Part shown: positions 35,078 through 48,857 of the stretch, piece after piece
Numbering within the stretch: the first letter of the stretch is position 1
How the letters are laid out: every line of letters starts with the position of its first letter
NCBI GenBank assembly: GCA_020072785.1
Contig: JAIQGG010000002.1
Coordinates: 744,001-808,000 of the forward strand
From: Terriglobia bacterium
GTDB lineage: Bacteria; Acidobacteriota; Terriglobia; Acidiferrales; UBA7541
Direction: 5' to 3'
DNA: 64,000 nt
Position numbers and translations under genes: made by a program
Notes under the pieces: model-generated
What the model saw: only the letters and a program-made list of their open reading frames with translations
Databases searched by the model: none
What the model was told of the DNA's origin: nothing

Positions 35078-35551
35078 ATGTCAACGGTCCTCCGTAGCCT
35101 CGAGTTTCTATCCCTGAGCCTGTGGCTCGGCGGCGACATTTTCCTCAGCTTTGTCGTCGCGCCCGGGGCGTTTGCGGTGCTGCCGGGGCGCGATCTCGCC
35201 GGCTCGATGGTCGGCTACGCCCTGGGCCGCCTGCACATTCTCGGCATCGTCTGCGGCATAGTCTTCTTCGCCGCGCGGCTGGCCCGCACGCGCTCCTTCG
35301 CCAACTTCGCCGCGCCCGTGGCCCTGGCCGTGGTGCTCATGCTCGCGCTCACTGTGGCCTCGCAGTACGGCGTCACCTCGCGCCTTGCCCGCTTGCGCTC
35401 GGAGATGGGCTCCGTGCAGAACACTGCCGCCGATAATCCCCTGCGCCGCGAATTCGACCGTCTGCACCGCCTCTCCGTCCAGCTCGAATCCGGCGTCCTC
35501 CTCGGCGGCCTCGCCGCCCTCTACCTGCTCACCCGCGAAGCCGTTCGCTGA
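35078..35551 (+). CDS. DUF4149 membrane protein
   Basis: A 157-residue protein with four membrane helices (about residues 5-30, 45-65, 75-95 and 135-153). FLSLSLWLGGDIFLSFVVAP near the start is the DUF4149 pattern. Function is unknown. The 3' end overlaps the convergent glycosylase gene by 31 bp. It starts 42 bp after the tRNA and may be read through from its promoter. Confidence 0.85.
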   Translation: MSTVLRSLEFLSLSLWLGGDIFLSFVVAPGAFAVLPGRDLAGSMVGYALGRLHILGIVCGIVFFAARLARTRSFANFAAPVALAVVLMLALTVASQYGVTSRLARLRSEMGSVQNTAADNPLRREFDRLHRLSVQLESGVLLGGLAALYLLTREAVR

Positions 35552-36261
35552 CGCCGGCTGGCCTTCCTTCTCTTGTTCTTCTTTTTCGCCGGGGCGCGCC
35601 CGATCTTGCGGGCTTTGCGGCTGTCCCGCTGCACCGCGCGCCACATGTACCAGCTCGCGACCGTGCGATACGGCCGCCAGCGCTCGCCGAACGCCAGCAG
35701 CTCCTTCGGCTTGGGTATGTAACGTTTGCCGTAGGTCAGCGCGTAGCCCTTCTGTACGCCCAAATCGTGAATCGGCAGCACGTCCGGCCGGCCCAGCCGG
35801 AAGATCAGGAACATCTCCACGGTCCACGCGCCCACCCCGCGCACGGAGATCAGCCGCGCGACCAGCTCCTCGTCCGAAAGCGCCTCCGCCTCGGCGCGAG
35901 AAGGAACCACGCCCGAGAGCGTCTTCCGCGCGAGGTCCTTCATGGCCCGCACCTTGGCCCCCGAGAGCCCCGCCTTGCGCAGCGCCCGCGTGGGCAGCTT
36001 CAGCATCTCTACCGGTGACGGCGCGCTCCTGCCCGCGCCCAGAGCCTTCACGCGGTTGAAGATCGTCTCCGCGGCCTTGCCGGAGATGGACTGATACGTG
36101 ACAGCTTCGAGCAGCGCCGCATAAGGGCTCTCCGTCCCGTCGGTTTCCGTCCGGAACTCCTCGGTACTCTGCATCAGCCGCGCCAGCCGCTGGTCCTTGG
36201 CGGCCAGTCTGTCCATGGCCAGGCGCAGGTCAAAAGGCGGCAATCGTCTTTCGGTCGTCAC
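35521..36261 (-). CDS. DNA-3-methyladenine glycosylase II-like (AlkA/MAG, HhH-GPD)
   Basis: A 246-residue HhH-GPD glycosylase. YAALLEAVTYQSISGKAA is the N-terminal helix pattern, SVRGVGAWTVEMFLIF is the helix-hairpin-helix, and the catalytic Asp lies in DVLPIHDLGVQKGY. It excises alkylated purines. The GTG at 36261 was chosen because GGGAG lies seven nucleotides upstream; a TTG at 36288 is possible. The last 30 residues are extremely Lys/Arg-rich, which could help DNA contact. It resembles the smaller bacterial MAG enzymes without the AlkA N-terminal domain. Confidence 0.9.
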   Translation of the reverse strand: MTTERRLPPFDLRLAMDRLAAKDQRLARLMQSTEEFRTETDGTESPYAALLEAVTYQSISGKAAETIFNRVKALGAGRSAPSPVEMLKLPTRALRKAGLSGAKVRAMKDLARKTLSGVVPSRAEAEALSDEELVARLISVRGVGAWTVEMFLIFRLGRPDVLPIHDLGVQKGYALTYGKRYIPKPKELLAFGERWRPYRTVASWYMWRAVQRDSRKARKIGRAPAKKKNKRRKASRRQRTASRVSR

Positions 36262-36383
36262 GTGCTCTCTCCCGCCGGCGATGCGCAAGAGAATACCAAG
36301 CCCTGCGAACCACCGCCCCAGGAATCTTGCCGCGAGTCACCAGTCACTGCTCCATGCTCCACGTGTGCTAAAATTTCACGCTT

Positions 36384-37460
36384 ATGCAAACAGGCATTAT
36401 TGGACTACCCCAGGTCGGCAAGACCACGCTCTTCCGCATCCTCACCAAGGCGCACGTCGAAGGCAAAGCCGGCGCCCAGGCGACCCACGTGGGCGTGGCC
36501 AAGGTGCCGGAGCCGCGCCTGCTCGAGCTGGCCAAGCTCTATAACCCCAAGAAGATCACTTATGCCACGGTGCAGTACGTGGACGTCGGCGGCATGCAGA
36601 AGGACCGCGCCAAAGATTCCGGGGTGCTCGCGCCGCTGCGCGACGTGGACACCATCGCCCACGTTCTCCGCGTCTTCGACGATCCCTCCGTGCCGCATTC
36701 CGCCGGGAGCATTGACCCGCTGCGCGACGCCACCAACCTCGAGCTGGAGCTGATCCTCGCCGACCACGACCAGATCATCCGCCGCCTGGAGCGCCTGGAC
36801 AAAGACCTCAAGAAGAAGCGCGACCCGGTCCTGGAGGGTGAGAAGGCAGTGCTCGAGCGCTGCAAGGCGCACCTCGAATCGGAAAAGCCCCTGCGCGAGC
36901 TGGAGATCACTCCGGAAGAGAAGAAGTTCATCAGCGGCTTCCTCTTCCTCTCCCAGCGCCCCATGCTCTTTGTGCTGAATCTCGGCGACGAAGAAGCCGC
37001 CGAGCTCTCCACCGCCGTCGAGCGCCACAAGCTCGGCGCGCTGCAGGGCCGGCCGAACACCGCGGTCGTGGCCATCTGCGGCCGCCTGGAAGCCGAGCTC
37101 GCCGAAATGGACGAGAAGGAAGCGGCCGAGCTGCTGGCCTCCTACGGCTTGAAAGAACCGGGCCTCAACCGCTTGATCCGCGCCACCTACGACTTGATGG
37201 GCCTGATCTCCTTCTTCACCGCCGGCGAGCCGGAAGTCCGCGCCTGGACCATCCGCAAGGGCTCCACGGCGTCCAAAGCCGCGGGCGAGATTCACAGCGA
37301 CATCGAAAAAGGCTTCATCCGCGCGGAAGTCGTGCGCTGGAACGACCTGCTGGAGGCCGGCAGCCTCGCCGCCGCCCGCGAAAAGGCCAAGGTCCGCCTC
37401 GAAGGGCGCGATTACATCGTGCAGGAAGGCGACGTCATTCTCTTCCGCCACAGCGGCTGA
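36384..37460 (+). CDS. ychF: YchF/Obg-like P-loop ATPase with C-terminal TGS domain, divergent
   Basis: A 358-residue protein that begins MQTGIIGLPQVGKTTLF (P-loop), has a coiled-coil insertion (about 125-170) and ends with the DUF933/TGS-like domain (RAWTIRKGSTASKAAGEIHSDIEKGF, near residues 285-310). YchF proteins are ribosome-associated ATPases. The segment after the G3 aspartate reads DVGGMQKDRAKDSGVL instead of the usual DIAGLVKGASKGEGLGN, so the conserved GEGLGN loop is missing. The G4 region is LNLGDEE. It may be a lineage-specific paralogue. The ZIP gene follows after 6 bp. Confidence 0.87.
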   Translation: MQTGIIGLPQVGKTTLFRILTKAHVEGKAGAQATHVGVAKVPEPRLLELAKLYNPKKITYATVQYVDVGGMQKDRAKDSGVLAPLRDVDTIAHVLRVFDDPSVPHSAGSIDPLRDATNLELELILADHDQIIRRLERLDKDLKKKRDPVLEGEKAVLERCKAHLESEKPLRELEITPEEKKFISGFLFLSQRPMLFVLNLGDEEAAELSTAVERHKLGALQGRPNTAVVAICGRLEAELAEMDEKEAAELLASYGLKEPGLNRLIRATYDLMGLISFFTAGEPEVRAWTIRKGSTASKAAGEIHSDIEKGFIRAEVVRWNDLLEAGSLAAAREKAKVRLEGRDYIVQEGDVILFRHSG

Positions 37461-37466
37461 CGCGGC

Positions 37467-38210
37467 ATGCTGCACTCCGAAACAGTCCGCATTGCGCTGG
37501 CCGCCGGCCTCGGCCTGGTGGCCGCCGGCGGCAATATCCTCGGCGGCTATTTCGTGGTGCGGCGGGACTGGCCGCGCCAGTTTCTCCACTATTTTCTGGC
37601 CCTCGGCGCCGGCTACATGCTGGCCGTGGCCTTCCTGGAGATCATTCCCGAGGCGGTGCACCTGGGCGGAGAGAACGCGCTGCTATTTGTCCTCGCCGGC
37701 TACTTCCTGGTGCACCTGTTCGAACACATCCTTGCGCCGCATTTTCACTTCGGCGAAGAAACGCACGCCGAGGAGATCCGCCACCACCATGCCAGCACGA
37801 CGGCGCTGCTGGGTCTGGTGATCCACACGTTTTTCGACGGCGTGGCCATCGCCGCGGGCTTTCTCGTCTCCACCTGGCTGGGCGTGGTCATCTTCGTCGC
37901 CGTCTTCCTGCACAAACTCCCCGAAGGCTTTACCGTGGCCTCCGTGGTCCTGGCCAGCGGGCAAGGCCGGCGGCAGGCCCTTTATGCAGCGGGGTTTCTG
38001 GGAGCCGCGACGCTCGCCGGAGTCCTGCTCACCACCCTGCTGCAGGCGCAACTCCAGTACGCTCTGCCACTTTCCGGCGGCGTGACGGTTTATGTAGCGG
38101 CCACCGACCTGCTCCCCGAGGTCAACCGCGAGCCCGGCTGGCGTACCGCCCTGCTGGTCTTTCTGGGCGTCGCCAGCCTGCTGGCGCTGAAGCATTTAGC
38201 GCATTTCTAA
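37467..38210 (+). CDS. ZIP-family metal transporter
   Basis: A 247-residue protein with about eight helices. The binuclear metal-site motifs of ZIP carriers are intact: HTFFDGVAIAAG in TM4 and HKLPEGFTVASV in TM5. A His-rich cytoplasmic loop (HFHFGEETHAEEIRHHH) between TM3 and TM4 is typical and may sense or bind metal. It probably imports zinc or another divalent cation. It is cotranscribed with the YchF-like gene (6-bp gap). No Zur-like box is evident. Confidence 0.92.
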   Translation: MLHSETVRIALAAGLGLVAAGGNILGGYFVVRRDWPRQFLHYFLALGAGYMLAVAFLEIIPEAVHLGGENALLFVLAGYFLVHLFEHILAPHFHFGEETHAEEIRHHHASTTALLGLVIHTFFDGVAIAAGFLVSTWLGVVIFVAVFLHKLPEGFTVASVVLASGQGRRQALYAAGFLGAATLAGVLLTTLLQAQLQYALPLSGGVTVYVAATDLLPEVNREPGWRTALLVFLGVASLLALKHLAHF

Positions 38211-38282
38211 GCGCACCCCTGTTTCCTCTGGCGCACACTTCTTCGGCTGCAACTTTCTGTCTCTGAACGGGTTGTATAGACT

Positions 38283-38897
38283 ATGGAGGTCATGGCCAGA
38301 ACCGACGTCCAGTTGATGCAGGACGTAAAGTCGGGCGACGAGCAGTCCTTCGCCCTGCTCCTGCACCGCTATCGGAGTCCGCTGGTCAACTTCCTTCACC
38401 GGATGGTGCGCAATCGCGAGCAGGCCGAGGACCTCGCGCAGGAAGTTTTCATCCGCGTTTACCGCGCGCGCGAAGACTACGAACCCAGCGCGAAGTTCAC
38501 CACCTGGCTTTTCCGCATCGCCACCAATCTGGCGCTGAATTCCATCCGCGACAATCACCACCGGCAGATGGAAATATCCATCGATCAGCCGCTGGCGGCG
38601 GATGCCGAGGACGGCGATGAGCGCCGCCTGGACGTGGCCGACGGCCACCTGGACATCGAGCAGCATTTGGTCGAGCAGGCCCGGCAGGCCATGATCCGCC
38701 GCGCCATCGCCAAGCTGCCGGAAAAGCAGCGCGCGGCCGTGCTCCTGCACAAGTATCAGGAGCTGGACTACCGCGAAATCGCCCGGATTCTGGAATGCTC
38801 GGAAAGCGCGCTGAAATCGCTGCTCTTCCGGGCCTATGAAACGCTGCGCATCGAGCTGGCTCCCCTGGTGGGCCAGCCGCCAAAGCAGCAGGGATAA
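38283..38897 (+). CDS. ECF-type RNA polymerase sigma factor
   Basis: A 204-residue sigma factor. Region 2 (about 25-95) includes FLHRMVRNREQAEDLAQEVF and TTWLFRIATNLALNSIRD. Region 4 (about 140-190) has LPEKQRAAVLLHKYQELDYREIA and ESALKSLLFRAYETLR. There is no region 3. ATG 38283 is followed by an in-frame ATG three codons later with GGAGG too close to it, so the first is used. An anti-sigma gene follows after 15 bp. It probably responds to envelope stress. Confidence 0.94.
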   Translation: MEVMARTDVQLMQDVKSGDEQSFALLLHRYRSPLVNFLHRMVRNREQAEDLAQEVFIRVYRAREDYEPSAKFTTWLFRIATNLALNSIRDNHHRQMEISIDQPLAADAEDGDERRLDVADGHLDIEQHLVEQARQAMIRRAIAKLPEKQRAAVLLHKYQELDYREIARILECSESALKSLLFRAYETLRIELAPLVGQPPKQQG

Positions 38898-38912
38898 GAA
38901 GGGAAGAAGGTC

Positions 38913-39377
38913 ATGAACTGTGCGCGAATGGAAAGCCGGATCCTGCCGTACCTCGACGGCCGCCTGAAGGAAGGCGAGCGGGCCGAGGCGGAGAAGCACC
39001 TCACGGCGTGCGCCGTCTGCCGTCTGCGCGTCAACGAATTCCGCTCCCTCTCCGGGCTGCTCGACGAGCTGCCGAAGATCGAGCCGTCCGCGGGTTTCGA
39101 TCTGCGGATGCAGGCGCGCATCGCCGCCGAGCCCCCGCGCCAGAGCTGGTGGGCCTGGCTCGCCCCTTCGCCGCGCGTGGCCTTTGCCGCTTCACTGCTT
39201 CTGCTGGCTACCGTCTGGGTCGCCTCGCGGCCCGCCGAGCAGGGACTCAACATGGCCGCGCCCGACACCGAAGTGCGCATGATGAAGGACCTGCCGGTGC
39301 TGGAAGATTACGACGTGCTCGCCAACTTCGAGCCGCTCCCGGATCTTCCGCCACCCGTGGATGCGGAGAACCAGTAA
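38913..39377 (+). CDS. Zinc-finger anti-sigma factor
   Basis: A 154-residue protein. The N-terminal zf-HC2 domain has C3 and H-x3-C-x2-C in KHLTACAVCRLRVNEF. A single membrane helix (about residues 88-106, VAFAASLLLLATVWVA) leads to an acidic periplasmic tail. It would hold the sigma factor encoded just upstream at the membrane. The tail ends EPLPDLPPPVDAENQ. The DUF3106 gene follows after 28 bp. Confidence 0.9.
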   Translation: MNCARMESRILPYLDGRLKEGERAEAEKHLTACAVCRLRVNEFRSLSGLLDELPKIEPSAGFDLRMQARIAAEPPRQSWWAWLAPSPRVAFAASLLLLATVWVASRPAEQGLNMAAPDTEVRMMKDLPVLEDYDVLANFEPLPDLPPPVDAENQ

Positions 39378-39405
39378 GAGGAGATTTTCCCGGTAAGAGT
39401 GGAAC

Positions 39406-40191
39406 ATGCACCGCACCGCACAATTCGCTCGCTGGCTTCTGGTCCCCCTCGCCGCGCTGGCGCTTCCGCTGGCCGCCGTGGCGGCGCAGAACCAGTCCGA
39501 CCGCCCGGATAAGCGCGAACAGAACCGCGAACGGCCTCGCGAACAGCGCCACGAACAACGGCAGCAGCAGTCCCGGGCAGAGCGTCAGCAGGAACGGCAG
39601 CGGCAGCGCCCGCCCGCCGGTAATGCGCAGCGCTCCCTGCCCGGCCGCGCAGCGCCTCCTTCGCGCGCGCCGGGACTCCAGCCGCCCTCGGCGTCCGGAC
39701 GGCAGTTTGCTCCGAGTGAGCGGCCCGCCGAAGCGCCGCGCGCGGGCACACAGCCTCCCTGGGTGGACCGCCTGCGCAACATGTCGCCACAGGAGCGCGA
39801 GCGCGTTCTCGAGAACCAGGGCAAATTCCGCTCTCTGCCTCCGGACCGCCAGGAGCACATTCGCCGCGACTTCCAGCGCTGGGACCGCCTGACGCCCCTG
39901 CAGCGCGACGAACTGCGCGACCGCGAGCGGGTCTGGCGCCAGATGACGCCCGAGCAGCGCGAGCACATCCGCGCCGACGTCCTGCCACGCTGGGAGCAGA
40001 TGCCCTTTGAACGCCGCCAGGCCATCCAGCGGCGCCTGCGCGTCCTCCGTGAGATGCCGGAATCGGCGCGCAACCAGCACCTCCGCGATCCCAATTTCAC
40101 CCGCGGCATGAGCCGGGAGGACCAGGCTCTGCTCGACGACCTCAGCCACCTCCACGTCGGCGGCGCCCCCGAACTTCCCGCCGAGCATTAG
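39406..40191 (+). CDS. DUF3106 secreted protein
   Basis: A 261-residue protein. A signal peptide (about 1-27, WLLVPLAALALPLAAVAAQ) precedes a very Arg/Gln/Pro-rich region (28-105) and then repeated helical motifs of the form MxPxERxxxLxNxxxFRxLPPxxRExIRxxxxRW (about 120-235). This is the DUF3106 pattern, which resembles heavy-metal-sensing periplasmic repressors such as CnrX/Spy in its Arg-rich helical repeats. Position after an ECF sigma/anti-sigma pair suggests it is either the stress sensor or the main target. Function is unproven. Confidence 0.85.
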   Translation: MHRTAQFARWLLVPLAALALPLAAVAAQNQSDRPDKREQNRERPREQRHEQRQQQSRAERQQERQRQRPPAGNAQRSLPGRAAPPSRAPGLQPPSASGRQFAPSERPAEAPRAGTQPPWVDRLRNMSPQERERVLENQGKFRSLPPDRQEHIRRDFQRWDRLTPLQRDELRDRERVWRQMTPEQREHIRADVLPRWEQMPFERRQAIQRRLRVLREMPESARNQHLRDPNFTRGMSREDQALLDDLSHLHVGGAPELPAEH

Positions 40192-40222
40192 CCGCGACAG
40201 CCGCAGAGGCACGGCACGCCAT

Positions 40223-40243
40223 GCCCCGGACAGCAGCCGGGGC
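40223..40243. repeat. GC-rich palindrome
   Basis: GCCCCGG-N7-CCGGGGC, followed by CGTACC, 32 bp after the DUF3106 stop. There is no T-tract. It resembles the dispersed intergenic palindromes at 6122 and 27356 in position and style, and could also help end transcription. Confidence 0.5.
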
Positions 40244-40312
40244 CGTACCCACCTGTTTTGACGAACGCGCTCTGCGCTGCCGCGTTGACAACAGCCCTCC
40301 CGCGGCGTCATC

Positions 40313-41593
40313 GTGACTGTTGCAGTTCCGTTGCATCCAATCGGGGGGAGGAACAACCCGCACGTGTCCGCGCGCTTCCGCGCTCTGCAGCACCGTAATT
40401 TCCAACTCTTCTTCGCCGGTCAGCTTACTTCGCTCATCGGCACGTGGATGCAGTCCACCGCGCAGCTCTGGCTCGTCTATAAGCTGACCGGCTCGGCGGC
40501 CCTGCTCGGTCTGTTCGCTTTCGCCAACCAGATCCCCATCCTGCTGCTGGCCGCCGTGGGCGGCTATGTCGCCGACCACTTCAACCGCCACCGCGGCGTC
40601 ATCTGGACGCAAACGGCCTCCATGTGCCTGGCCCTGCTGCTCGCCGCGCTCACCCTGTCGCACCACGTCCGGGTGTGGCATCTCATCGTCATCGCCTTCC
40701 TCGTTGGCATCGTCAACGCCTTTGACGTGCCCATCCGCCAGGCCTTCATCATCCAGATGGTTGGCAGGCCCGACCTGCCCAACGCCATCGCCCTGAACTC
40801 CTCGATCTTCAACGGAGCACGCGTCGTGGGCCCGGCCCTCGCCGGTCTGGCCATCGCCTGGGTCGGCGAAGGCTGGTGTTTTTTCTTCAACGCCTTGAGT
40901 TTCCTCGCCGTCATCGCCGCGCTGCTGGCCATGCGCCTCGCGCCGGTTGCGCCCAAGCCCGAAGGCGGCTCGCCGCTGCAGAATTTCATCGAGGGCTTCC
41001 GCTTCGTCATGGGCGATGTGCCCATCCGTTCGGCGCTGCTGCTGCTCAGCCTGCTCAGCCTGCTCGGCCTGCAGTATTCCGTCTTTATGCCCATCTTCGC
41101 CACCGACATCCTGCATGGCGGCCCGCGCGGCCTGGGCTTCCTGATGAGCGCGGCGGGCGTCGGCGCGGTGATCGGAGCGCTGCACTTCGCCGCGCGGACC
41201 GCCTACAAGGGCCTGGCGCGTTTTATCGCCGTGACCTCTTCCATCTGCGCCGCCGGTCTCATCGTCTTCTCCCAGTCGCAGCTCTTTCTGCTCTCGGCGG
41301 GCGTGCTCGCCGTGGTCGGCTTCGCCGCCACCGCGCAGATGGCCGCCACCAACACCATCGTGCAGAACCGCGTCTCGGACGAACTGCGCGGCCGGGTCAT
41401 GGCCGTTTACGCCGCGATGTTCATGGGCGTGCAGCCCATCGGCGCGCTGTTTGCCGGCATCATCGCGCGGCACATCGGCGCGCCGCTCACGCTCACCATC
41501 TTCGGCTCGGTGTGCCTTGCCGGCACGCTCCTCTTCGTCTTCCGCGTGCTTTTGCGCATCGAGCCGTCCCCGCCACTCCCCGCCCCTTCGTAG
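40313..41593 (+). CDS. MFS exporter (MFS_3, EntS-like)
   Basis: A 426-residue transporter with twelve predicted helices. LFFAGQLTSLIGTWMQSTAQLWLVYKLTGS (near residues 33-62) is the MFS_3 signature region, followed by VADHFNRHRGVIWTQ between TM2 and TM3. Members export siderophores or drugs. The frame opens at GTG 40313; GTG 40364, preceded by GGGGGGAGG, is an alternative start that would remove 17 residues. The 213 bp after its stop, facing pqqB, contain no gene. Confidence 0.88.
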   Translation: MTVAVPLHPIGGRNNPHVSARFRALQHRNFQLFFAGQLTSLIGTWMQSTAQLWLVYKLTGSAALLGLFAFANQIPILLLAAVGGYVADHFNRHRGVIWTQTASMCLALLLAALTLSHHVRVWHLIVIAFLVGIVNAFDVPIRQAFIIQMVGRPDLPNAIALNSSIFNGARVVGPALAGLAIAWVGEGWCFFFNALSFLAVIAALLAMRLAPVAPKPEGGSPLQNFIEGFRFVMGDVPIRSALLLLSLLSLLGLQYSVFMPIFATDILHGGPRGLGFLMSAAGVGAVIGALHFAARTAYKGLARFIAVTSSICAAGLIVFSQSQLFLLSAGVLAVVGFAATAQMAATNTIVQNRVSDELRGRVMAVYAAMFMGVQPIGALFAGIIARHIGAPLTLTIFGSVCLAGTLLFVFRVLLRIEPSPPLPAPS

Positions 41594-41806
41594 CCAGCTG
41601 CGGAGAGCGACGTCTATTTCAGTCATTCCGAGGGAAGTCCCGATGTTCTTCATCAGGAGTGAGTCGAGGAATCTTTCCGCAATCGAAGAGAGATTCCGCG
41701 CTGCGCTTGGAATGGCGGATGCAGATGTGCGGTTCGGCGAACTCTCGAGCGGGATGGGGCGGTAAAGCCAGTCAGCGCCTAGGCCGGCAGTTGCCCGCAC
41801 CAGTTG

Positions 41807-42739
41807 TCACAGTTCCAGCTCCATCCCATCGAAAGCGATCGCCCGCCCCGCCGCCAGCAACTCCCGGTGTTCCGCGCTCTCCTCATCGAGAATGGGGTTG
41901 GTGTTGTTCAGATGGATGAGCACGCAGCGCGTCTGATGAGCGGACTGCAATTGCCCGAGAAGGCCGCTTGCGCCAGAGAGCGGCAAGTGCCCCAGCTGCC
42001 GGGCCGTCTTGCCGCTGCTTTGTATTTTGATGAGTTCGTCGTCCGTCCAGAAGGTCCCGTCAAGCAATGCCAGATGGCTCTCGCTGATGCGTCGTTTCCA
42101 ATCTTCGCCGCGGCCCGGCAGGCTGGGAGCATAGAAAAACCTCTTCTCGCCTTGCACCAGCTGCAGGCCGATCACGGCTTCTTCTTCCGGCAAGCTGCTC
42201 CGCAGATGGTCGCTCACATAGTCCGGAAAACTCCCGTTCAGCGGCACGGCCTTGCAGAAAAGATTCATTTTTGCTCCGGCCGGGCCCTGCGCGACGAGGG
42301 AAATCAGCCGGTCCAGAGGAAGAACTTCCCAGCGCGACGGAGGGTTGGAGCGCGCTAAGGTGCGGAAAAGGCTGTTGTCCTCGGTCAGTATGCGCCGCAC
42401 CGATAAGGTCGAATAGATCCGCAGCGGCTGGAATTCCCGCAGATGGAGCAGGCCCAGTACGCACTCCACGTCCGCACTCGTAAGCAGGATCGCGGAGATG
42501 GGGGTGCTGCGCGGCGCGCCCTTCGGAGCAAATTCAGAGTGCGCGGCGAGCTGTTGCCGCAAGTCGGGAGAAGCGTTCAGGAGGAACCAGGAAGAACCGT
42601 CGGGCGAAACCGCGAGCTGCGCCTGGGTGCGCGCGCGCCCGCGCAGGGTGCCATCGCGCAGGCGGCTGCAATTGCGGCAGGCGCAATTCCACTGGGGAAA
42701 TCCGCCCCCGGCGGCGGAGCCGAGGACCTTGACGCGCAT
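41807..42739 (-). CDS. pqqB: PqqB-like metallo-beta-lactamase-fold protein with altered metal motif
   Basis: A 310-residue PqqB homologue. It begins MRVKVLGSAAGGGFPQWNC and has the structural zinc ligands C19, C21 and C24 (CACRNC). GHLPLSG (H251), LLDGTFWTDDEL (D227) and IHLNNTNP (H276) are conserved. The usual Asp-His pair of the active-site metal motif is replaced by Glu92-Cys93 (LTSADVECVLGLL). PqqB hydroxylates the Tyr of the PQQ intermediate, so loss of these ligands questions activity. A PqqA-like peptide gene lies 6 bp upstream. pqqC, pqqD and pqqE are not present. Confidence 0.88.
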   Translation of the reverse strand: MRVKVLGSAAGGGFPQWNCACRNCSRLRDGTLRGRARTQAQLAVSPDGSSWFLLNASPDLRQQLAAHSEFAPKGAPRSTPISAILLTSADVECVLGLLHLREFQPLRIYSTLSVRRILTEDNSLFRTLARSNPPSRWEVLPLDRLISLVAQGPAGAKMNLFCKAVPLNGSFPDYVSDHLRSSLPEEEAVIGLQLVQGEKRFFYAPSLPGRGEDWKRRISESHLALLDGTFWTDDELIKIQSSGKTARQLGHLPLSGASGLLGQLQSAHQTRCVLIHLNNTNPILDEESAEHRELLAAGRAIAFDGMELEL

Positions 42740-42745
42740 ACAGGC

Positions 42746-42823
42746 TTACAGTTCCGCACCGGCGGAAGAGTTAATTTCGCAGTTCAGGTCCATCTCTTCG
42801 TGCTGTGGCGTGACCCGTTCCAT
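42746..42823 (-). CDS. pqqA: PqqA-like precursor peptide lacking the conserved tyrosine
   Basis: A 25-residue peptide too short for usual gene callers. ATG 42823 has a G-rich Shine-Dalgarno (AGGGGGG) seven nucleotides upstream. Its core LNCEINSSAGAEL aligns with the E-x3-Y core of PqqA (for example EINSY in Gluconobacter), but the tyrosine position is Ser20 (codon TCC, one base from TAC). The glutamate (Glu16) is kept. PQQ is built by joining that Glu and Tyr, so this peptide cannot be a normal substrate. It is followed 6 bp later by pqqB. Confidence 0.7.
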   Translation of the reverse strand: MERVTPQHEEMDLNCEINSSAGAEL

Positions 42824-43143
42824 TGGTGCACCCCCCTGCGAGCGGTCATCTCGCCGCGCCCGCTCAGATGGCGCGACCCGCGCAGTATAACGTTGCCCTC
42901 GCTGCCGCAAGAGGTTTTTTCCACGGCCCATTCTGCCCGCGCCAGGTTTCCGCCGCGTGAGCCTGGTCTGGCTCCCACCGGCGCATGCTGTGACTCGCAC
43001 CGGGAGCAGCAAGGCCACCACCAATCCTCGTCGCTCCGGACCCCCGGAGCGCAATCCCTAGGGGCTATTTTTCCGCGCTGCGCAGGGTGTTCCACTTTCT
43101 GCTTCGGCCTGCGAAATATTTTTATCAATATTGAGAATTCCCC
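42824..43143. other. Intergenic region between pqqA and the mraZ promoter
   Basis: 320 bp between two divergent units. I see no gene with recognisable features on either strand and no strong palindrome. The left end carries the pqqA ribosome-binding site. The pqqA promoter should be here but no clear -35/-10 pair stands out. Confidence 0.45.
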
Positions 43144-43171
43144 TTGACAAGCCCGGAATCCAGTCTATTAT
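43144..43171 (+). promoter_or_regulatory. Sigma70-type promoter of the dcw cluster
   Basis: TTGACA (43144-43149) is a perfect -35 box, followed by a 16-nt spacer and TATTAT (43166-43171). It lies 104 bp upstream of mraZ and directly abuts the MraZ boxes. Confidence 0.85.
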
Positions 43172-43195
43172 GTGGCACAAAGTGGAAGGAAGTGG
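43172..43195 (+). promoter_or_regulatory. Three MraZ boxes (GTGG, 10-bp spacing)
   Basis: GTGG at 43172, 43182 and 43192, exactly 10 bp apart. MraZ binds (G)TGGG/GTGG direct repeats with this spacing and represses its own cluster in other bacteria. The boxes start at the end of the -10 hexamer, which would block polymerase. Confidence 0.85.
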
Positions 43196-43274
43196 TGAGC
43201 AGTAGAGAAGAGTAGAGGACATTAGAGGGTCGTGGTGATTCGCCATAATCGCTGCCACACTTTGAGCCAAACAC

Positions 43275-43715
43275 ATGAAACTGCGGGGGAACTGTCCGGC
43301 GAAGGTCGACGAGAAGGGTCGGTTGAAGATACCCGCCGTGTTTCTCGACGCGCTCAAGGAGTACGGGAACCAGTTCTACATCACCAGCACCACGGGGGAA
43401 TCGGCGCGGATCTATCCGATGAAAGTCTGGTCTGAGATCGAGGACAAGCTGGCTAAAGTCTCCTCGCAGAACCGGGCCAAGAGGAAGTTTCTGATGCGCA
43501 CCAGCTATTTCGGACAGACGGTCGAAGTGGACGGGCAGGGCCGGGTGCTGGTGCCCGCGGTGCTGCGCGAGGCCGCGCGGATGAAGGGCGAAGTGGACGT
43601 CTTCGGCAACCTCGACTATCTCGAGGTCATGAACCATAGCCGAGTGATGGAAGACCTGAAAAATTCGCCGTACACCGATGACGACGACAAGGCATTGGAA
43701 GACCTGGGGATTTGA
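43275..43715 (+). CDS. mraZ: Transcriptional regulator MraZ
   Basis: A 146-residue protein with two SpoVT/AbrB-like beta domains. Each carries the DxxGR motif: VDEKGRLKIPAVF (about residues 10-22) and VDGQGRVLVPAVLRE (about 86-100). MraZ forms large rings and binds direct repeats upstream of its own gene. It is the first gene of the dcw cluster, and its operator boxes are visible 80 bp upstream. Confidence 0.96.
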   Translation: MKLRGNCPAKVDEKGRLKIPAVFLDALKEYGNQFYITSTTGESARIYPMKVWSEIEDKLAKVSSQNRAKRKFLMRTSYFGQTVEVDGQGRVLVPAVLREAARMKGEVDVFGNLDYLEVMNHSRVMEDLKNSPYTDDDDKALEDLGI

Positions 43716-43742
43716 GGCTGCCAAAGCCAGGGCAGGGAGAAT

Positions 43743-44618
43743 TTGACAGCGCCGCACACGCCGGTGCTCTTGCAGGAGGTGCTCGAATGGCTGCGAATCA
43801 GGCCCGACGGAACGTATCTGGACGCCACCCTGGGCGCCGGCGGCCATGCGGAAGCCATCGCGCGGCACTTGACCTCCGGGCGGTTGATCGGCCTGGACCG
43901 GGACGCACGGGCTATCGAGCTGGCGCGGGAGCGCCTGAAGAGCTTTGGGGCGACAGTGACGCTGGTGCAGTCGCCGTTTTCGAGGATTGCGACGGTCGTG
44001 CAGGAGCTGGAGCTGCCGCCGTTGGACGGCGTGCTGGCCGATCTGGGAGTTTCCAGCATGCAGCTTGACCGCGCCGAGCGCGGCTTTTCGTTTCGCGAAG
44101 CGGGTCCGCTGGACATGCGCATGGACGACCGCGACGCCGAGACCGCAGACGAGATTGTGAATCGCTGGCCGGAGCAGGAACTGGCCGATTTGCTCTATCG
44201 GGAAGCCGAAGAGCACGATTCCAGAAGGATCGCCAGGGCCATTGTCCGCGCGCGTCCCATCCGGGACACCGCGCACCTGGCAACGGTTGTAGCAGGGGCC
44301 CGGAAGCAATGGGGAAGGCAGAGACTGCATCCCGCGACAAAAACATTTCTGGCGCTGCGGATAGCGGTGAATCGAGAGGTGGAGGAACTCGGGCAGTTTC
44401 TTCTCCGGACCCCTGCTACTTTGAATTCCGGCGGACGCTGGGTAGTGCTCAGCTACCACTCGCGGGAAGACTGCCTGGTGAAACAGGCTTTTCGGGAAGG
44501 CCAGCGCCAGGGGGTGCTGCGCAACCTGACCAAGCATGTGATTCCCCCGAGGGCCGCGGAAATCGCCGCCAATCCCCGGTCGCGCAGCGCGAAGCTCCGC
44601 TGCGCCGAGAAAATATGA
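43743..44618 (+). CDS. rsmH: 16S rRNA m4C1402 methyltransferase RsmH
   Basis: A 291-residue SAM methyltransferase. It shows HTPVLLQEVLEWL near the start, the SAM loop DATLGAGGHAEAIA (about 28-41), ADLGVSSMQLD and the C-terminal LSYHSREDCLVKQAF. It methylates N4 of C1402 in 16S rRNA. The start is TTG 43743. The stop overlaps the ftsL start (ATGA). Slightly shorter than the E. coli enzyme. Confidence 0.96.
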   Translation: MTAPHTPVLLQEVLEWLRIRPDGTYLDATLGAGGHAEAIARHLTSGRLIGLDRDARAIELARERLKSFGATVTLVQSPFSRIATVVQELELPPLDGVLADLGVSSMQLDRAERGFSFREAGPLDMRMDDRDAETADEIVNRWPEQELADLLYREAEEHDSRRIARAIVRARPIRDTAHLATVVAGARKQWGRQRLHPATKTFLALRIAVNREVEELGQFLLRTPATLNSGGRWVVLSYHSREDCLVKQAFREGQRQGVLRNLTKHVIPPRAAEIAANPRSRSAKLRCAEKI

Positions 44619-45034
44619 GTTTCCTTGGGAAGAAGCGGGCCGCCATGACTGAATTTCACACCATCAAGCGCATCGACAACTCGCGGCTGGTCCGCGCCAT
44701 GCAGCCCGCGCGAACCCGCGATCTGGCGCGCACCGTGGCCCTGTGGTGCGCGGTCGCCGCTTTCTTCCTGTGCTACGGCTACCAGCGCTTTAATTGCATC
44801 GAGCTCAGTTTCCAGCTGGAGGACTTGAAAGCCCGGCAGACGCAGGCTTCGGCCACCAACACGGAACTCAAGCTGGAAGTTGCCGGTCTGCGCAATCCCA
44901 GCCGCATCGATCTGATCGCGCGCCGCCAGCTCGGCTTGACCGAGCCTCTGCCGAACCAGATGGAGGCTGGCAGCGGCCCCAGCGACGCGGAAGTGGCCGC
45001 CGTGCAGGAAGCGCGGCCCGGCCGCGCGCAATAG
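44615..45034 (+). CDS. ftsL: Cell division protein FtsL-like
   Basis: A 139-residue bitopic protein. A cytoplasmic N-terminus of about 42 residues precedes one membrane helix (LARTVALWCAVAAFFLCYGY, about 38-57) and a periplasmic coiled coil (LSFQLEDLKARQTQASATNTELKLEVAGL, near 65-93). It corresponds in position and layout to FtsL, which works with FtsQ and FtsI at the septum. Start ATG 44615 overlaps rsmH by 4 bp. Sequence similarity to E. coli FtsL is low, as expected. Confidence 0.88.
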   Translation: MSFLGKKRAAMTEFHTIKRIDNSRLVRAMQPARTRDLARTVALWCAVAAFFLCYGYQRFNCIELSFQLEDLKARQTQASATNTELKLEVAGLRNPSRIDLIARRQLGLTEPLPNQMEAGSGPSDAEVAAVQEARPGRAQ

Positions 45035-45098
45035 CCGCGGAACAGTTTCAGAACCGCCGGGGCGGACGCCAGCACGGCCCGCGAGCCAACCGGGGGTT

Positions 45099-45113
45099 GA
45101 CCGCTTTGCGGTC
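45099..45113. repeat. GACCGC-TTT-GCGGTC palindrome between ftsL and ftsI
   Basis: A single copy of the dispersed 15-bp palindrome, in the same orientation (GTTGACCGC...GCGGTCAC) as at murC, but here 65 bp after the ftsL stop and 64 bp before ftsI. Confidence 0.85.
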
Positions 45114-45177
45114 ACCCAGAATAAGGATGCAAGCGGCGGTGCGCAGGGCAGAAAAACACCGGCCGGCCTGAAACGAC

Positions 45178-47289
45178 ATGTCAGCGCCCCGTTCCCACGT
45201 CCGTTTGCTGCTCGTCGCCGGCGTGGTGCTGCTCTGGACGCTGGCGGTGACCGGCCGCCTCGCCTACCTGCAGCTTTTCCGTTACAGCGACTATCTGGGC
45301 CGGGCGCAGCGCCAGCAGCAGCGCATCGTTGAAGTCACCCCGCGCCGCGGCTCCATCTACGACCGCAACCTGCATCCCCTGGCCATGAGCGTCCCGGTGG
45401 ATTCCGCCTTTGCCGTGCCCGCGGAGATCCGCGACACGCCGCTCGCTGCGCGCCTGCTCTCCAGCGTCCTGCACATCCCCCGCGACGTTCTCGAAGCGCG
45501 CCTCGATCCCTCGCGCTCCTTCGTGTGGATCGCCCGCAAGCTTCCCCCGGAAAAGGCTCAGGCTCTGGCCGCGCTCAATCTCCGCGGCATCTACTTCCAG
45601 AAGGAAAACCAGCGCTTCTATCCCAAGCGCGAGCTGGCCGCGCACGTCCTGGGCTACGTGGACCTGGACGAAAAGGGCATCGGCGGCATTGAATACGCCC
45701 TCGACCGCCAGATCCGCGGCAAAGCCGAAAAGATCCTGGTCATGTCCGACGCCCGGCGCCGCTGGTTCGACGCCACGGAAACCACGCGCGATGGCGCCGC
45801 CAGCGTGGTCCTGACCCTGGACGAAAAAATTCAGTACATCGCCGAGCGCGAATTGGCCGCAGCCATCGCGCGCACCCACGCCGTGGCCGGCACCGTGGTG
45901 GTCCAGAACCCGGCCAACGGCGAGCTGCTGGCCGTCGCCAACTGGCCGCGCTTCAATCCCAACGCCGCCGCCGAGAGCCCCGCCGAAGCCCACATGGACC
46001 GCGCCATCAGCGCCCTCTACGAGCCCGGCTCCACCTTCAAGCTCATCACCCTGGCCGCGGCCTTCGACGAGCGCCTCATCCGTCCCGACGACGTCTTCGA
46101 TTGCCAGAACGGCGCCGTGTACATCGCCGGGCACCGCATCCGCGACCACAAGCCCTTCGGCTTGCTCAGCGTGAAACAGATCCTGGCGGAGTCCAGCGAC
46201 GTGGGCGCCATCAAGATCGCTCTGCGCCTTGGCGCTCCTAAATTCTATGAATACATCCGCGCCTTCGGATTCGGTGCGCCCACCGGCGTGGACCTGCCCG
46301 GCGAGAGCAAAGGGCTGCTGCGGCGTCTGGAGAACTGGACCCCGGTCTCCATCGGCTCCATCTCCATGGGGCAGGAGGTCGGCGTTACCCCTATCCAGCT
46401 GGTTACCGCGGTTTCCGCCATCGCCAACGGCGGTCTGCTGTACCAGCCGCGCGTCGTCCAGGAACTCCGCCGCGGCGAGGAAGCGGCGTCCCTGCCCGCC
46501 GCGCTGGCTCCGCGAGAGCCGCGGCGCGTCATCCGTCCGGAGACCGCCGCGACGCTGCGCCGGCTGATGGAAGGCGTGATCCTGGATGGTACCGGCAAAC
46601 TGGCCCGCCTCGACGGCTGGACCGCCGCGGGCAAGACCGGCTCGGCGCAGAAGATCGATCCGGCCACCGGGCGCTACTCCCCGGACAAGCTCATCGCCTC
46701 GTTTTCGGGCTTTGCGCCGCTCAACAATCCGGCGGTGACCATACTCGTTTCCCTCGATTCGCCGGTAGGACTGCACGAAGGCGGGCAGGTGGCCGCACCG
46801 GTCTTCAAGCGCATCGCCGAACAGGTTCTGGCCTATCTGGATGTGCCGCGCGACGTCCCTGGAAGCCGCCGCCTGCTGCTGGCTTCCTACCGCGGTCCAG
46901 CCGGGATCGGCTCCAGGCGCGACGACGGCGACCTCGAAGATTTTGCCGCGGTCGATTTTTCCGCACAGCCCGAAGGGGCCCTGACCGAATCTAATAAAAG
47001 GACGGAGTCGGAGCCCCCCAGCGTCACCATTGCGGTGGACCAAGGCGGCGACATTGCCGTGCCCCTGCTGCAGGGCAAAACCATGCGCGACGTCACCAGC
47101 GACTGCCTGCGCCTCGGCCTCGACCCCGTGCTCGTGGGTACCGGCGTGGTTACCGAGCAATCGCCGCAGCCCGGCGTCAAAGTCCGGCGCGGCAGCAAGA
47201 TCATCGTGCGCTTCGGCGCGCCGCAGTTGGCGGCGCAGAATCCGCCGCAGGAGCGGAAGCCCCGCACCGGAACAGGAAAACAGAAATGA
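45178..47289 (+). CDS. ftsI: Septal penicillin-binding protein FtsI/Pbp3 with C-terminal PASTA domain
   Basis: A 703-residue class B PBP. One membrane helix (about 8-30) is followed by a dimerisation domain and the transpeptidase. The active-site motifs are STFK (Ser285, Lys288), SSD (339-341) and KTG (486-488). A PASTA domain stands at about 620-685 (IAVPLLQGKTMRDVTSDCL...), as in SpoVD or PBP2X-like enzymes of Gram-positives; E. coli FtsI has none. It crosslinks septal peptidoglycan with FtsW. The 3' end is close to the murE frame. Confidence 0.95.
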   Translation: MSAPRSHVRLLLVAGVVLLWTLAVTGRLAYLQLFRYSDYLGRAQRQQQRIVEVTPRRGSIYDRNLHPLAMSVPVDSAFAVPAEIRDTPLAARLLSSVLHIPRDVLEARLDPSRSFVWIARKLPPEKAQALAALNLRGIYFQKENQRFYPKRELAAHVLGYVDLDEKGIGGIEYALDRQIRGKAEKILVMSDARRRWFDATETTRDGAASVVLTLDEKIQYIAERELAAAIARTHAVAGTVVVQNPANGELLAVANWPRFNPNAAAESPAEAHMDRAISALYEPGSTFKLITLAAAFDERLIRPDDVFDCQNGAVYIAGHRIRDHKPFGLLSVKQILAESSDVGAIKIALRLGAPKFYEYIRAFGFGAPTGVDLPGESKGLLRRLENWTPVSIGSISMGQEVGVTPIQLVTAVSAIANGGLLYQPRVVQELRRGEEAASLPAALAPREPRRVIRPETAATLRRLMEGVILDGTGKLARLDGWTAAGKTGSAQKIDPATGRYSPDKLIASFSGFAPLNNPAVTILVSLDSPVGLHEGGQVAAPVFKRIAEQVLAYLDVPRDVPGSRRLLLASYRGPAGIGSRRDDGDLEDFAAVDFSAQPEGALTESNKRTESEPPSVTIAVDQGGDIAVPLLQGKTMRDVTSDCLRLGLDPVLVGTGVVTEQSPQPGVKVRRGSKIIVRFGAPQLAAQNPPQERKPRTGTGKQK

Positions 47290-47378
47290 CCAGCGGAGTG
47301 CGCAATGCCCCGGAATGTAAGGATGCACACAGGGAGGAAGCCCCGGAAATTTTTCCGGGCGCAGGGGAAAAACGTAGC

Positions 47379-48857
47379 ATGAACCTCGGCGATCTATTGC
47401 AAGGTGTGGAGCGGCTCCCCGCGGCGGTGGCGATGGACGCCGAGATCCGCCAGGTCGTCTGTCACTCCGCGAAAGTGCAGCCCGGCGCGCTCTTCTTCGC
47501 CCTGCACGGCGCCAAGGCCGACGGCCACAAGTACGTCGCCGAGGCCATCGCCCGCGGCGCCCTGGCCATTGCCAGCGAGGAGCCGCGTCCGGCGGAACTC
47601 CCGGCGCAGATCGCCTGGGTCCAGGTGCGTGAGCCGCGCAAAGCCCTGGCTATCACCGCTGCCAACTTCTTCGGGCATCCCGCGGAGGCCCTGCAACTCG
47701 TCGCCGTCACCGGCACCAACGGCAAAACCACCACTACGCATCTCGTGGACGCCATTCTCAAGGCCTCCGGGGCAAAGACCGGCCTCTTCGGCACCATCGA
47801 ATACCACACCCCGCGCGGCTGCTATCCCGCGCCCAACACTACCCCGGAGTCCGTGGACCTCCAGGGCTTTTTCGCCGAGATCCGCGACGCCGGCGGCAAC
47901 TACGCCGTGCTGGAAGCCAGCTCCCACGCTCTCTCGATGGACCGCTTGTGGGGCTGCCGCTTCGCCGCCGCCGTCTTTACCAACCTCACCCGCGAGCATC
48001 TCGACTATCACAAGACTTTCGAAGACTATTTCGCCGCCAAGCGCCGCCTTTTCGAAGGCACGGGCGCGGGCGCCCCGGGCTGTGCCGTCGTCAATGCCGA
48101 CGATCCTTACGGCCCGCGCCTCGCCGGCCTCGCTCAGCAAACCCTCACCTACGGCTTGCAGGAGCCCGCGGACATCACCGCGAAGAAGTTCGCCCTCTCC
48201 TTCGCCGGCCTCTCCTTCAGCGCGCAGACCCCGGCGGGGAAGATCGCCATCCAGTCTCCGCTGGTGGGCCGCATCAACGTTTACAACATTCTCGCGGCCA
48301 TCGGCGCGGCGCAGGGTCTGGGCATTTCCAATGAGCTCATTGCCGCGGGCATCGCGCAGCTCGAACACGTTTCCGGCCGCTTCCAGCGCATCGACCTCGG
48401 CCAGCCCTTCCTGGTCATCGTGGATTATGCGCACACCGACGACGCGCTGGATAATCTCATCCGCACCGCGCGCGAGCTTAATCCCAAGGGCCGCATCATC
48501 CTGCTCTTCGGCTGCGGCGGCGAAAAAGACCGCACCAAGCGCCCGGTCATGGGCGAAGTGGCCGGGCGGCTCAGCGACCTCACCGTGCTCTCCAGCGACA
48601 ATCCGCGCAGCGAGGATCCGCTGAAGATCATCAGCGACATCGTGGTGGGAATGCAGAAAACCGCGGGAAAGTATCTGATCGAACCGGACCGCGAAAAGGC
48701 CATCGGCCTGGCATTCGACGAGGCCCGCGCCGGCGATATCGTCCTGCTGGCCGGCAAAGGCCATGAGAACCGCCAGATTCTGGCGGATCGCACCTTGGAG
48801 TTTGACGACCGCGAGATGGCGCGGCGCGCCTTGCGGCAACGCGGGTTTGGCACGTAA
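47379..48857 (+). CDS. murE: UDP-MurNAc-tripeptide synthetase MurE
   Basis: A 492-residue Mur ligase. The ATP loop is GTNGKTTTTHLVDAIL (about 112-127), with TPESVDLQ and the carbamylated-lysine region further on. SSDNPRSEDP carries the DNPR motif that selects meso-diaminopimelate. I chose ATG 47379 (MNLGDLL), with AGGGG upstream. An in-frame ATG at 47286 overlaps the ftsI stop and would add 31 residues, so it cannot be ruled out. Confidence 0.95.
   Translation: MNLGDLLQGVERLPAAVAMDAEIRQVVCHSAKVQPGALFFALHGAKADGHKYVAEAIARGALAIASEEPRPAELPAQIAWVQVREPRKALAITAANFFGHPAEALQLVAVTGTNGKTTTTHLVDAILKASGAKTGLFGTIEYHTPRGCYPAPNTTPESVDLQGFFAEIRDAGGNYAVLEASSHALSMDRLWGCRFAAAVFTNLTREHLDYHKTFEDYFAAKRRLFEGTGAGAPGCAVVNADDPYGPRLAGLAQQTLTYGLQEPADITAKKFALSFAGLSFSAQTPAGKIAIQSPLVGRINVYNILAAIGAAQGLGISNELIAAGIAQLEHVSGRFQRIDLGQPFLVIVDYAHTDDALDNLIRTARELNPKGRIILLFGCGGEKDRTKRPVMGEVAGRLSDLTVLSSDNPRSEDPLKIISDIVVGMQKTAGKYLIEPDREKAIGLAFDEARAGDIVLLAGKGHENRQILADRTLEFDDREMARRALRQRGFGT

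Follow-up and report, generated by a model that had tools for sequence, protein, structure and literature searches.

The window, meaning the whole 64,000-nucleotide stretch analysed here, carries on its minus strand a 25-codon open reading frame, a full-length pqqB gene and, behind it, the scar of a deletion (Table 1). The small frame opens with an ATG preceded by a Shine-Dalgarno-like GGGGGG run, and its stop lies 6 bp from the start of pqqB (42739). The downstream product is PqqB according to an equivalog-level, full-length match with TIGR02108 (330 bits against a cut-off of 245, E 1.3e-98, residues 2-310). Coordinates, translation and this match agree with an earlier note on this DNA, which had described a 25-codon frame with its own Shine-Dalgarno just before pqqB.

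Table 1. Coordinates of the features at the pqq locus, in window positions; changes are given relative to G007, the nearest relative
Feature	Position	Strand	Remarks
Decayed pqqA (probable relic)	42746..42823	(-)	MERVTPQHEEMDLNCEINSSAGAEL, then stop; W3R, I11M, S18N, Y20S, N22G
Codon 20 of pqqA, TCC (Ser)	42764..42766	(-)	TAC (Tyr) in relatives
pqqB, full length, open	41807..42739	(-)	310 aa; D92E, E300A at near-invariant positions
Scar of the pqqC/pqqD/pqqE deletion	41566..41806	(-)	place occupied in G007 by L041 5758-7914
pqqC remnant, 25 bp	41772..41796	(-)	GQLPA*AL for GQLQAWAL, stop now inside
pqqE 3'-end remnant	41751..41773	(-)	DWLYRPIP for DWLYRPNP; abuts the pqqC remnant
Stretch with short dispersed repeat	41575..41760	(-)	eight partial copies at other places in the genome; absent in G007

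A profile built from 11 acidobacterial PqqA peptides retrieved the 25-codon product in a whole-genome search (E 6.3e-12, 48 bits), so the PqqA-type alignment on which the earlier note relied survives a profile search. It is the sole significant match: an intact second pqqA elsewhere in the genome was sought with the same profile and not found, the next match having an E value of 6.5. Searched against Pfam and NCBIfam, the peptide gave no match; the Pfam PqqA model PF08042 matched nowhere in the genome search, controls included, and our own alignment was used instead. By its alignment, the peptide is a genuine homologue of PqqA, far above chance, and it is encoded together with pqqB. Glu-16 and Tyr-20 of PqqA are the pair joined by PqqE (PMC10906245), and the numbering of the window peptide matches the published one. 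Glu16 is kept and position 20 is a serine, as the earlier note had seen; it had placed the serine codon at 42761-42763, but those positions hold GCC, the codon that follows it.

The nearest relative, G007, belongs to the same genus and has a complete pqqABCDE operon at the same chromosomal place. Its PqqA, MEWVTPQHEEIDLNCEISSYANAEL, shares with the window peptide the length of 25 residues, the MExxTPQHEE leader, the LNCE core with Glu16 and the AEL end, and both genes have their own ribosome-binding site directly before pqqB. Unlike G007 PqqA, the window peptide carries the five substitutions listed in Table 1, and polarisation with outgroups places all five on the lineage of the window and none on that of G007. 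In the readable genus relatives the peptide encoded just before pqqB hardly varies, its pattern being roughly MEW(T/V/I)TP(Q/R)HEE(I/V)xLxCE(V/I)SSYANAEL, and Glu16 and Tyr20 are always present. W3, Y20 and N22 are identical in all genus relatives read and all three are altered in the window peptide; the serine form, which the earlier note proposed to look for in related genomes, occurs in none of the relatives read.

Among the more distant Acidobacteriota and Proteobacteria recovered, nearly every pqqA beside pqqB encodes the E-x-x-x-Y core. The exception is a PqqA-like peptide of the Burkholderiales MAG ES-bin-258, MAWNKPEFTDMRFGFEVTMCILNR (JACMKV010000332.1; L102, 853-927), in which the essential Tyr is a Cys (TGC). 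It is the sole such frame in an 8.2-kb locus where pqqB, pqqC and pqqE follow downstream, each matched over nearly its full length. A base error in the MAG or a second pqqA elsewhere may account for the Cys form; still, as a lead to a Tyr-less PqqA this peptide is more promising than that of the window. A second PqqA-like peptide was also noted in G022, MEWEKPESTEISLACEISGYANAEL (L148, about 2134-2208; G022:C21:16633-16707), whose frame has no stop after Leu25 and lies directly 3' of a PQQ-dependent dehydrogenase gene, away from the pqq operon of that genome.

Downstream of pqqB the window departs from G007. The stretches 35453-41566 and 41806-47525 are collinear with G007 and 90-92% identical, and between them 240 bp stand against about 2.1 kb in G007 that hold intact pqqC, pqqD and pqqE. 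Unlike in G007, none of these three genes follows pqqB. The scar reads as a pqqC fragment, the C-terminus of pqqE and the repeat stretch, with pqqC and pqqE in the expected order. The remnants are short, and their score was matched by one of 244 random 75-mers, which makes them moderate evidence when taken alone; given their order and place, their alignment convincingly points to real remnants of pqqC and pqqE.

The lost genes do not reappear elsewhere. Genome-wide searches of the 98.9%-complete genome returned no match to pqqC and no match over the cut-off to pqqE; the same searches found pqqE above the family cut-off in 27 of 61 relatives and pqqC in 28 of 61. A PqqE hidden under another name was considered and rejected, the best radical-SAM match reaching 90 bits against a cut-off of 381. 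The sole PqqD-family gene in the genome (C1:44625) adjoins a different radical-SAM gene (C1:44924), and a 53-aa frame downstream of the latter could encode its precursor. This pair (L001, 1142-2595, and its candidate precursor at 2662-2823; G000:C1, in the genome of the window) is apparently a separate peptide-modification system, and G007, in addition to its pqq copy, has a PqqD gene at another place that matches with similar strength. The search for intact pqqA, pqqC, pqqD and pqqE that the earlier note had called for thus yielded no second pqqA, no pqqC, no pqqE and a PqqD-family gene that belongs to another system; of pqqB, pqqC, pqqD and pqqE, pqqB alone remains.

We searched 200 genomes of the class (completeness floor 90%), finding pqqB in 46 and pqqE in 44. 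Only two of the genomes with pqqB lack pqqE, namely that of the window and G017, a member of the same genus. Like the window genome, G017 keeps a whole pqqB and its quinoproteins while pqqE is destroyed; unlike it, G017 retains pqqD, a pqqC with an internal deletion and both ends of a pqqE that is cut to fragments, and no pqqA was found at its decayed locus. That locus (G017:C173; L143 / L049) is a second, separately decayed pqq operon with a mobile-element-like ATPase gene nearby. From their gene content, both loci look like operons being lost rather than a new system.

The two surviving genes have changed to different degrees. Of the two, pqqA is otherwise the more conserved gene, yet on the window branch five of its 25 codons changed their amino acid, compared with 20 of 310 for pqqB (Fisher p 0.03). 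Codon-model branch tests on pqqA gave no clear relaxation, with only 25 codons and saturated synonymous sites to work on. For pqqB, which has no indels relative to G007, polarised amino-acid changes numbered 20 on the window branch against 14 on the G007 branch, and with a different set of outgroups 19 on each, which suggests no clear excess. Codon models flagged pqqB on the window branch and fitted even better with the G007 branch freed, and we do not count these models as evidence. Against decay stands the state of pqqB, whole and without a clear surplus of changes: either the loss is recent or the gene is still used, and in that case the faster change of pqqA requires that pqqA was freed first. 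On the simplest reading of these counts, the loss is fairly recent and pqqA has drifted for longer than pqqB, or the difference arose by chance.

That pqqA is dead and pqqB alone is kept under selection for a secondary activity is unlikely. An open pqqB whose amino-acid change does not clearly outpace that of the G007 branch is what such selection might leave, and G017 likewise has its pqqB whole next to the ruins of an operon. However, in the 200 genomes pqqB without pqqE was met only in two visibly decaying loci, so that nothing points to an orphan PqqB that has persisted for long, and neutrality of the window branch is not firmly rejected (LRT 3.3). Moreover, the window protein is altered at Asp92 and Glu300, both otherwise near-invariant; Asp92, which the aligned relatives share with the solved PqqB 1xto, is a Glu in this protein, whose hydroxylase activity is putative. 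For the broader proposal that the altered peptide, the orphan PqqB or both are kept for a job besides PQQ synthesis, such as PqqB hydroxylating another substrate, we see a slim chance.

The earlier note had left two outcomes side by side, a decaying system or a peptide turned precursor of a different modified product. The second, with PqqB as the tailoring enzyme, is very improbable, even if the start, the ribosome-binding site, Glu16, the frame and the spacing to an intact pqqB are all preserved. Neither a PqqE-type enzyme nor the PqqD of the operon is left in the genome to act on such a precursor, and the only PqqD and radical-SAM pair is encoded on another contig, where it has its own candidate precursor nearby; its PqqD has a counterpart in the PQQ-competent G007. 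The absence of the serine form from all relatives read, the loss of the conserved leader residue W3 as well, and the place of PqqB in the known pathway, where it acts after PqqE crosslinking and proteolysis (PMC10906245), also speak against it. A sequencing or assembly error that produced the serine in an otherwise functional operon has a practically negligible probability, since 14 of the 75 nucleotides of pqqA differ from G007 with the frame still open, and pqqC and pqqE are missing from the whole assembly.

Decay is strongly supported: the genome as a whole lacks pqqC and pqqE, the locus has lost the pqqCDE segment that relatives still carry there, and a peptide that otherwise hardly varies has taken five changes. 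Judging from the sequences compared, the locus of this soil acidobacterium, which is related to Candidatus Acidiferrales MAGs, is very probably a relic of a pqqABCDE operon in which pqqA has been freed from selection and PQQ is no longer made; the window peptide would then be an ordinary relic, not a new product. Deletion of pqqC, pqqD and pqqE would have left pqqB behind and pqqA no longer held by selection. Substitutions at the crosslink Tyr and at the conserved Trp and Asn may have followed, with loss of expression or function of pqqA, so that PQQ could not be made.

The genome retains two full-length PQQ-dependent alcohol dehydrogenase genes (G000:C5:99161-100753 and G000:C5:1101-2609). 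The product of one of them, about 710 aa long, has a cytochrome domain and an adjacent Cys-Cys pair; it is 91.8% identical to its G007 counterpart, with a dN/dS of 0.145. Many Gram-negative bacteria use PQQ that they do not make themselves, and within Acidobacteria PqqU was reported in Vicinamibacteria only (PMC12124388). As in PQQ-scavenging bacteria such as E. coli with PqqU (PMC12124388), PQQ-dependent dehydrogenases are present in the window genome and PQQ biosynthesis is absent; unlike in the E. coli scavenger, the loss is recent enough to have left pqqA, pqqB and a scar. With its quinoprotein dehydrogenases kept, the bacterium probably uses PQQ that its neighbours synthesise and release.

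Gene loss and PQQ scavenging are both already known, and the finding is therefore a small surprise. The locus catches the loss of a cofactor synthesis part-way, with pqqA and pqqB left, a scar that comparison with a close relative makes readable, and the PQQ-needing enzymes kept. At least in this genus, PQQ dehydrogenase genes without full biosynthesis occur in the window genome, G017, G009, G018 and G019, which suggests that PQQ is shared in soil.
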